Shown here piece by piece: positions 17,169 through 20,731 of a stretch of DNA of 41,797 nucleotides. Within the stretch, counting starts at the first letter, position 1, and the number at the start of each line of letters is the position of its first letter. The notes under the pieces are model-generated. The model worked only from the letters and a program-made list of their open reading frames with translations, did no database searches and was not told the DNA's origin. The translations under genes and the position numbers were made by a program. The DNA comes from an uncultured SAR86 cluster bacterium (GTDB lineage: Bacteria > Pseudomonadota > Gammaproteobacteria > Magnimaribacterales > D2472). The stretch spans positions 1 to 41,797 of the forward strand of contig CACNXK010000003.1 of assembly GCA_902624425.1 (NCBI GenBank), written 5' to 3'.

Positions 17169-17195
17169 ATGGGGCTTTGTGCCCCATTTTTTTTT
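17169..17195 (+). terminator. Rho-independent terminator after groEL
   Basis: The arms ATGGGGC (17169-17175) and GCCCCAT (17181-17187) are perfectly complementary around a TTTGT loop, and the second arm runs into nine consecutive T. It is the clearest intrinsic terminator in the window and separates groESL from the superoxide dismutase genes. Confidence 0.92.
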
Positions 17196-17201
17196 ATTTG
17201 A

Positions 17202-17223
17202 TATAAAATAAATTTTTACGGAG
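17202..17223 (+). promoter_or_regulatory. Possible -10 element and ribosome binding site of the sodN cassette
   Basis: TATAAAAT at 17202-17209 sits just after the groEL terminator, and GGAG at 17220-17223 is five bases ahead of the ATG at 17229. No good -35 can be named, as the upstream bases are the terminator T-run; the cassette nevertheless needs its own start site because the terminator is strong. Confidence 0.35.
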
Positions 17224-17228
17224 AAAAA

Positions 17229-17405
17229 ATGAAAAAGTATTTTTTAATTATGTTATTCCCTTTATATGCAAATGCTCATGTGACTAATGCCGCTCATTCA
17301 CATATGGTTGAGTTTTTGGTAAATATGATTATATTTTTCGCTTATGCACTTTTAGGCTTAACATGTGCACTGATTTTAAGAGCCATTTATAGGAGTTTTA
17401 TATGA
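17229..17405 (+). CDS. Small His-containing membrane peptide coupled to sodN
   Basis: A 58-residue ORF with a good ribosome binding site (GGAG, five bases before the ATG). The N terminus MKKYFLIMLFPLYANA looks like a signal peptide with an ANA cleavage site; the mature chain would begin with His and hold a short cluster HVTNAAHSH, followed by one long hydrophobic segment (VNMIIFFAYALLGLTCALIL) and a basic tail RAIYRSFI. Its TGA overlaps the sodN ATG (ATGA), so translation of the two is probably coupled. I do not recognise the family. A role in nickel handling or in membrane-side protection is only inference from the histidines and the neighbour. It is flanked upstream by the groEL terminator, so it is the first gene of the sod cassette. 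Confidence 0.75.
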   Translation: MKKYFLIMLFPLYANAHVTNAAHSHMVEFLVNMIIFFAYALLGLTCALILRAIYRSFI

Positions 17406-17866
17406 AAATTAGAAATGTAAAAGCGCATTGCGATATTCCATGTGCTGTCTATGATCCAGCTGTAGCTCAGTTTGCAGCTCTCAGTGTTGTGAGATTTTTA
17501 GATTTGATCGGTGAGATGGATGATAACCTTAGTTCAAAAGAAGATATTGCCCACCTAGCAAGAATCATGGAACAAAAGGAGTCTCATGCAAAAGAAGTTA
17601 AAGATGCAATTGCAACAATCTGGGGCGATTATTTTAAAGAGCCGCATATGGAAAAATTCCCTGAAATTCATTCTTTAACACATTCCATTATGATGACTGC
17701 TTCAAAATGTAAACAGAGCCTAGACAGAGAGAATGGCCTAAAATTGGTTGAGCTTGTAAATAGATTTGCAGAAATATTTTGGACAACAAAAGAAGTACAG
17801 GTAGAAAGTAAGAAATCTCTAAATCCTCCAAATTTAGATCTTATTGTTCCTGTAGTTAGTGATTAA
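17402..17866 (+). CDS. sodN: Nickel superoxide dismutase precursor
   Basis: 154 residues. The short leader MKIRNVKA is followed by HCDIPCAVYDPA, the nickel hook: after removal of the leader, His1, Cys2 and Cys6 (precursor residues 9, 10 and 14) bind Ni. The remainder is the expected four-helix bundle. It dismutates superoxide to oxygen and peroxide; the leader lacks a secretion signal, so it acts in the cytoplasm. It lies between the small peptide gene (ATGA overlap) and sodX (eight-base overlap), which encodes the expected leader protease. Ni-SOD is common in marine bacteria that save iron and manganese. No Fe/Mn-SOD is in this window. Confidence 0.96.
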   Translation: MKIRNVKAHCDIPCAVYDPAVAQFAALSVVRFLDLIGEMDDNLSSKEDIAHLARIMEQKESHAKEVKDAIATIWGDYFKEPHMEKFPEIHSLTHSIMMTASKCKQSLDRENGLKLVELVNRFAEIFWTTKEVQVESKKSLNPPNLDLIVPVVSD

Positions 17867-18137
17867 GATATTTAGAGTAAAAGGGAGCAGTATGCTCCCT
17901 AACTTTAAGTCTAACCAACTTGTATTAGCTGTAAAAACAAAAAACCTTTACGTTAACGATGTTGTTATTTTAAGCACAAGTGATTCGGGAGAAATAATTA
18001 AGCGTATTTCAAGCATAGAAGATAATCACATAAAAGTGACCGGTGATAATACGGAATATAATTCAAGGCATTATTCAGAAATATTCAATACTGATAATGT
18101 AATCGGAAAGGTTTTTTTTAAGATCTCACTTTTTTAA
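17859..18137 (+). CDS. sodX: Ni-SOD maturation protease (S26/S24-like peptidase SodX)
   Basis: 92 residues, the small signal-peptidase-like protein found next to sodN. The nucleophile Ser is in VKGSSMLPNF (about residue 11) and the general-base Lys in EIIKRISSI (about residue 48), followed by VTGDN, which matches the GDN motif of S26 peptidases. There is no membrane anchor. It should remove the eight-residue leader of SodN to expose His1. It overlaps sodN by eight bases and converges on the corB-like gene with a 20-base overlap. Confidence 0.9.
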   Translation: MIKIFRVKGSSMLPNFKSNQLVLAVKTKNLYVNDVVILSTSDSGEIIKRISSIEDNHIKVTGDNTEYNSRHYSEIFNTDNVIGKVFFKISLF

Positions 18138-20068: not shown

Positions 20069-20731
20069 ATGGTAGTTATTAGACTTTCAAGAAGTGGGGC
20101 AAAAAAGAATCCCTATTATTTTATTACAGTTGCTGATTCTAGAAATCCAAGAGATGGTGGTTTTATCGAGCGCCTCGGGTTTTATAATCCCTCAGCAAAA
20201 GGCCAAGAGGAATCTTTACGAATAGATGTTGAAAAGGTTAATGAGTGGGTTTCTAAGGGTGCTCAGATAAGCGATAGGGTTAAAAAATTAATTAAAGACT
20301 CTAAATTAACATCTGAAGAACTTGAAGCAAGAAAGTCAGCAAAAAAAGATAAGGCAGATGCAAAAAAGGCAGCTGCATTAGCTGCAAAGCAAGAAGAAGT
20401 TAAAAAACAGGCTGAGGAAGCTGCAGCTGAAGAGGAAGCAACTGCTGAAGAAGCACCTGCTGAAGAAGCACCTGCTGAAGAAGCTGCAACTGAAGAGGAA
20501 GCACCTGCTGAAGAAGCTGCAACTGAAGAGGAAGCACCTGCTGAAGAAGAAGCACCTGTTGAGGAAGCTACAACTGAAGAGGAAGCACCTGCTGAAGAAG
20601 ATGCAACTGAAGAAGAAGCACCTGCTGAAGAAGCTGCAACTGAAGAGGAAACAGTTCCAGCTGAAGATGAGGTTGTTGACGAAAATTCCGAAGAATCCTC
20701 TGATTCTGAAGAAGAGGATGAAAAGTCCTAA
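20069..20731 (+). CDS. rpsP: Ribosomal protein S16 with a long acidic C-terminal tail
   Basis: 220 residues against about 80-90 for a typical S16. Residues 1-80 are an ordinary S16 core ([45 protein letters not shown]). From about residue 88 a Lys/Ala-rich linker leads into roughly 100 residues built of Glu, Ala, Pro and Thr (units such as [11 protein letters not shown]), ending [10 protein letters not shown]. The tail is in frame and its stop lies 14 bases inside rimM, so it is a real part of the gene. Similar units occur in rplS at the other end of the same operon. The tail must protrude from the small subunit; its role is unknown. The ATG lacks a strong Shine-Dalgarno sequence. Confidence 0.95.
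20430..20660 (+). repeat. Imperfect short tandem repeats coding the acidic S16 tail
   Basis: Repeats of a 33-base unit (encoding [11 protein letters not shown]) and shorter 15-18-base variants fill this stretch, with changes such as GCACCTGTTGAGGAAGC interrupting the order. The unit contains the string GAAGCTGCAACTGAAGAGG, nearly identical to the matching part of the rplS repeat. The copies are less uniform than in rplS, which suggests an older or less homogenised array. Confidence 0.85.

Follow-up and report, generated by a model that had tools for sequence, protein, structure and literature searches.

The DNA analysed here (the window) is a stretch of 41,797 nucleotides from an uncultured SAR86 cluster bacterium. 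It carries a gene for nickel superoxide dismutase, sodN (17402..17866; PF09055, E 4e-44; TIGR02753), preceded by a 58-codon ORF (17229..17405) and followed by a sodX-like gene (17859..18137) for a SodN maturation protease of the S24/S26 type (PF00717, E 8.6e-11; TIGR02754, E 2e-8, the latter under the family cut-off). These genes and the operon signals described next all lie on the forward strand. Upstream, an intrinsic terminator with a 7-pair stem and a T-run (17169..17197) closes groEL; the terminator search found two such sites, against 0.2 expected. The ORF has a Shine-Dalgarno (SD) element, GGAG (17220..17223), 5 nt before its ATG at 17229, and a second GGAG, inside the ORF (17392..17395), serves sodN. 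The TGA of the ORF (17403-17405) overlaps the sodN ATG at 17402, giving a stop/start ATGA (17402..17405). An earlier note, made from the sequence alone, had claimed the terminator, the GGAG site, the 58-codon ORF and the ATGA overlap, and all are confirmed. SodN itself has an 8-residue leader, MKIRNVKA, ahead of HCDIPC. Elsewhere in the window, 20069-20731 encodes an apparent ribosomal protein bS16 with a long, repetitive C-terminal extension rich in Glu and Ala (220 aa in total).

The ORF encodes a putative membrane peptide. Residues 1-16 (17229..17276) are predicted to form a Sec signal peptide ending in ANA, a reading (MKKYFLIMLFPLYANA, then HVTNAAHSH) based on the sequence and consistent with the −3/−1 pattern of relatives. 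The predicted mature N-terminus, HVTNAAHSH (17277..17303), holds three histidines that are invariant among relatives, at residues 17, 23 and 25 (mature positions 1, 7 and 9). By hydropathy, a single transmembrane helix spans approximately residues 29-55 and is followed by a basic C-terminal tail (17313..17393). An AlphaFold model based on 22 sequences (mean pLDDT 82) shows a short N-terminal helix, corresponding to the signal, and then one long helix of residues 21-57, with block pLDDT values of 79-98 from residue 21 on; H23 and H25 open the long helix. One caveat concerns the tail, where the residues R(R/S)F are set in part by the overlapping sodN SD. As translation of this element (AGGAGGTTT) accounts for part of the R-R-F tail in close relatives, conservation of the tail is not independent evidence of protein function.

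A conserved gene coupled to sodN

We inspected all sodN loci of the window's gammaproteobacterial order, which comprises some 200 species and whose members we term SAR86-type. An ORF of 48-63 residues lies upstream of sodN in 45 of the 48 loci. In each of these 45, the distance from the end of the ORF to the sodN ATG falls between −8 and +1 nt; a 4-nt stop/start overlap is seen in 24, and 38 have an SD-like site no more than 14 nt from sodN. Dinucleotide shuffles yielded 1.02 such ORFs per 48 loci, and 0.000 with the motif. When 107 genomes of the family were searched for the peptide, nine matches were obtained, every one in a sodN-bearing genome and directly 5′ of sodN.

All ORFs of the order share one architecture, namely a signal peptide, A or S followed by His1, a spacer of 3-8 residues, HxH and one transmembrane helix. 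Only M1 and the three histidines are listed as invariant across the order's peptides. Among 101 distinct relatives, the residue after the predicted cleavage site is His in all cases, position −1 is A (96) or S (5), and position −3 is L, A, V, S, I or T, with M seen once. For 30 close pairs of peptide genes, pooled pN/pS was 0.127/0.357, and nearly all pairwise dN/dS values lay between 0.05 and 0.6. Thus, sequence and comparison together establish the layout of the protein: a signal peptide, then an invariant His soon followed by an invariant HxH, a single helix and a basic tail.

An obvious alternative is that the ORF is spurious or non-functional and merely carries the ribosome-binding site of sodN. 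In its favour, the ORF is very short and is missing at three of the 48 loci of the order (L002, from the window's genus, L049 and L052). Against it stand the shuffle test, the dN/dS values, the invariant histidines and a natural fusion to SodN (see below), and we regard this alternative as virtually eliminated. The 58-codon ORF is thus a genuine gene, coupled to sodN and under purifying selection. At L049 and L052, the interval between groEL and sodN may be the remnant of a peptide gene.

The claims of the earlier note can be judged on this basis. It had proposed a coding gene coupled to sodN, whose product has a signal peptide that exposes His1, then a cluster of histidines and a single membrane helix; these claims hold across many genomes, with cleavage remaining an inference. 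It had named two observations that would refute it, absence of the ORF in close relatives with sodN and a substitution pattern without coding constraint. The first check is mostly passed, the exceptions being the three loci above, and the second is passed. The conserved histidines and conserved overlap that it suggested looking for upstream of sodN are seen in the three invariant residues and in the position of the ORFs at the sodN start.

Relatives outside the order and their gene neighbours

A scan of named genomes by SodN alignment gave 80 loci. At 55 of them, a separate ORF of 56-80 residues lies upstream, encoding a signal peptide, A followed by H-x-GHDH, then IH, a transmembrane segment and a basic tail. 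The genera with an upstream peptide include Shewanella, Colwellia, Alteromonas, Pseudoalteromonas, Marinomonas, Grimontia, Enterovibrio, Neptunomonas and Methylophaga, among others. In a second family (197 genomes), the peptide is present in all 23 genomes bearing full-length sodN. No relative was found in the viral contigs searched, and plasmid records yielded only two sodN relatives, without annotation.

Are the SAR86-type and other gammaproteobacterial peptides of common origin? Profile comparison by hhalign gave 96% for the two sets and 89% for the mature parts alone, while single-sequence scores of the mature parts barely exceeded those of shuffles. The evidence for common origin is therefore limited to shared synteny and architecture, plus a profile match of modest strength. 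We conclude that the peptide is not peculiar to the window's organism but represents a family widespread in Gammaproteobacteria, to which the uncharacterised Pfam family DUF6732 is related.

Several features of these loci deserve mention. A conserved gene for an unannotated, TPR-like protein of approximately 147 aa lies 5′ of the peptide gene at 53 of the roughly 80 named loci (e.g. L067-L084) as an additional member of the operon, in the order TPR, peptide, sodN, sodX; the window lacks it and has groEL upstream instead. At L067, L076, L080 and L111, a gene for an ArsP_2-type metal permease with 10 transmembrane segments (PF11449) lies downstream of sodX. The TPR gene, the peptide and sodX are kept in four species of one genus (L223, L227, L185 and L187) in which sodN is lost or survives as a short remnant, and the same genes persist at L225, L226 and L239 after loss or reduction of sodN.

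The peptide is missing at sodN in several lineages outside the order. It is also missing at all five loci where SodN has its own Sec signal (L063-L066 and L215), and one genome (G631) carries both a Sec-signal sodN without the peptide and a cytosolic-type sodN with it. Absence from the Sec-signal types is as expected if the peptide serves metallation in the cytosol. However, Sec-signal SodN forms a separate subfamily, and hence this contrast is confounded by descent. Hydrophobic leaders called at L002, L055, L086, L087, L111 and L134 derive from upstream sequence that is not translated, and these calls were left out of the comparison.

A fusion gives a further clue to function. In an uncultured Pseudomonadales MAG (L104:2824-3501), the peptide and SodN are joined in frame as a single 225-residue ORF. 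Because the linker contains no alternative start codon, SodN in this organism is expected to be synthesised as an extension of the helix that lies in the cytosol. The architecture of the peptide implies that its N-terminus faces out and its C-terminus in, an inferred topology with which fusion to a cytosolic-type SodN agrees.

Other loci connect the peptide to nickel and cobalt genes. In a Methylococcales genome (L108) and in Novosphingobium (L147), the slot upstream of sodN is occupied by a full HupE/UreJ gene (PF04955, E 7e-40 and 8e-47), the product of which begins with a signal peptide followed by AHxG(H). In the second family, related mini-proteins of 57-66 residues (signal peptide, AHxDH..H..YH, transmembrane segment) are encoded directly downstream of ureG at 18 loci (L229-L238 and L241-L248), with weaker profile matches; other urease clusters are known to carry full-length ureJ or hupE. 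One of these ureG-linked proteins matches DUF6732 (PF20506; E 5e-4). DUF6732 was found in seven of 299 genomes of the phylum, and in all seven loci (L216-L222, alphaproteobacterial) its gene is directly upstream of cbiX (PF01903). A single protein architecture thus accompanies three acceptors of nickel or cobalt, SodN, UreG/urease and CbiX.

Proposed nickel capture for SodN and competing readings

The route by which nickel reaches SodN is, to our knowledge, not established, and no Ni chaperone for SodN is known. Given the data above, the reading we favour, with moderate confidence, is that this small protein sits in the inner membrane and captures metal specifically for nickel superoxide dismutase; the reading rests on comparative evidence, without measurements of binding or activity. 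According to this model, signal peptidase would free the N-terminal amine of His1, which together with HxH (GHDH in other gammaproteobacterial members) would bind Ni(II) on the periplasmic side. Probably in oligomeric form, or together with a permease whose gene lies elsewhere, the peptide would raise the supply of Ni(II) at the membrane beside newly made SodN precursor, which would then be trimmed by SodX. It would behave as a single-helix counterpart of the HupE/UreJ N-terminal tip or of the anglerase domain found in HupE/UreJ-2. By the same logic, the ureG-linked copies would serve urease (Ni) and the cbiX-linked copies cobaltochelatase (Co). The nickel role, cleavage of the signal peptide, the identity of the metal, topology and delivery are all inferred.

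This reading is supported by linkage to sodN, the invariant His1 and HxH, purifying selection, the L104 fusion and the sharing of a slot with HupE/UreJ, as well as by the ureG and cbiX neighbours and, by analogy, the anglerase precedent (PMC12537917). The earlier note had offered a nickel-related role as its own inference; the linkage to Ni/Co genes and the fusion strengthen it, and it remains an untested inference. Several observations argue against it. A single helix cannot transport metal alone, and no candidate partner permease follows sodN in its distribution. The peptide is missing from three sodN loci of the order and from several further lineages, and some genomes retain it, with sodX, after loss of SodN.

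Two types of permease were considered as partners. NicO (PF03824) is ruled out, as it occurs in none of 203 genomes of the order. HupE/UreJ-type proteins (PF04955 search) are unsupported, since their occurrence is not raised with sodN: in the family of 107 genomes, they are found in 15 of 30 genomes with sodN versus 54 of 77 without. These proteins, present in 69 of the 107 genomes, are approximately 320 aa long, and the one at L148 consists of an N-terminal domain plus HupE_UreJ_2, an anglerase-like layout.

A different possibility is that the metal is copper. The mature His1 and HxH would then form a Cu(II) site that keeps copper off SodN or feeds a cuproprotein. An N-terminal His is a classic copper site. 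An AHEGHDH tip is also present on a PCuAC-like protein, a copper chaperone, and cupredoxin genes lie near some copies of the peptide gene; tips of the AHxGHDH kind on a copper chaperone mean that the metal of the peptide could be Cu. The consistent partners, however, are Ni or Co acceptors, and we consider the copper reading improbable.

The peptide might instead recruit SodN, its helix and basic tail holding the SodN precursor (and SodX) at the membrane, with the His tip stabilising the protein or binding any divalent metal. Tethering of SodN in the L104 fusion and the tight coupling of peptide and sodN are in line with this. Yet the conserved residues lie in the periplasmic tip and not in the tail, the R-R-F of which is partly forced by the sodN SD, and the tails of DUF6732 proteins are acidic where those of the peptides are basic. 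We consider a recruitment role unlikely.

The main rival holds that the peptide is a metal-sensing nascent leader like CutF, in which the peptide, on export, would bind metal and thereby adjust how strongly the overlapping sodN is translated, with no later job of its own. CutF, a metal-responsive exported leader, shows that such a mode exists for copper, and His-only CutF-like clusters occur upstream of HupE/UreJ (PMC9973294). Like these, the peptide is a short, exported, His-bearing protein encoded 5′ of a gene connected with metals, with overlap in some cases, and the sodN SD lies within the peptide ORF. However, the defining C-terminal PP stalling motif (PP within the last 15 residues) is absent from 103 of 104 peptides, including that of the window. 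The L104 fusion places SodN on the same chain, so that no independent target gene remains to be regulated, and the copies linked to ureG are located 3′ of the enzyme genes. Moreover, conservation of the transmembrane helix and of the invariant His1 is seen at the level of the protein. Given the missing motif and the existence of the fusion, we downgraded a CutF-type stalling leader to an unlikely explanation.

The nickel-capture reading can be extended. In a bolder version, the peptides would constitute a class of Ni/Co proteins not recognised before, with one helix and an N-terminal His, encoded with their acceptor (SodN, UreG/urease or CbiX) and coupling capture at the outer face to metallation of the new cytosolic protein, possibly by assembling into a minimal oligomeric conduit that dispenses with a classical permease. 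We lean against this version on present evidence.

The family is a concrete and widely conserved candidate for SodN nickel supply, found in cultured genera (Shewanella, Alteromonas, Colwellia and Marinomonas) and in streamlined ocean bacteria alike. The findings also tie the uncharacterised DUF6732 to cobalt insertion and the mini-proteins to urease, and suggest one shared principle of Ni/Co supply. The earlier note knew of no described first gene of this type. In the open-access literature searched, sodN-sodX and sodT are described, no such first gene was found and DUF6732 is not mentioned; a description in a subscription journal is not excluded.

Comparison with known systems

The window peptide matches no Pfam-A family at E ≤ 10, including the CbtB cobalt-transporter subunit, and nothing meaningful in NCBIfam. 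Among larger nickel-related membrane proteins, SodT (UreH family) of picocyanobacteria is encoded in a cluster with sodN and sodX and is proposed to supply nickel (PMC4284471). It is a far larger protein with six transmembrane helices, compared to one in the peptide. HupE/UreJ proteins, which transport nickel or cobalt (PMC7689651, PMC4284471), share with the peptides a signal peptide followed by AHxGH.. and, at L108 and L147, the slot upstream of sodN. HupE has six transmembrane helices, the first with an HPxxGxDH motif (PMC7689651), unlike the 58-aa, single-helix peptide; the motif is found in none of 104 peptides. Four of 42 gammaproteobacterial members match PF04955, the best with E 0.01. 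Comparison to HupE by hhalign, for which just two HupE sequences were used, gave 87% with the signal peptide and 6% for the mature parts only. Direct homology to HupE was thus tested and is not shown.

Anglerase domains provide another precedent. They carry an N-terminal His and are proposed to fish for metal ions and feed HupE/UreJ-2 permeases (PMC12537917). The peptide resembles Ang-1/2 in its invariant His1 after a signal peptide, with cleavage predicted from sequence, and in its membrane attachment. Anglerases, however, are β-sandwich domains of approximately 175 residues fused to a permease; the window peptide has neither a globular β domain of this type nor a fused permease, and presents a tip of approximately 9-12 residues on one helix.

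A further counterpart is DUF6732, which shares the signal peptide, AHxGH..GHxH, one transmembrane helix and a length of ~70 aa, and whose genes precede cbiX, encoding a cobalt-inserting enzyme. Its tails are long and acidic, in contrast to the basic tails of the peptides, and its genomic partner also differs. In the Pfam scan, the window peptide does not reach the cut-off of the DUF6732 HMM. Nonetheless, 26 of the 42 gammaproteobacterial sodN-linked members match the model at E ≤ 1, and one, from Marinomonas, exceeds the cut-off (28.3 versus 27). The window peptide does show the DUF6732 architecture, with HxH standing in for GHDH, and it meets every criterion of its own family: a signal peptide, A or S followed by His, HxH, one transmembrane helix and a position adjoining sodN.
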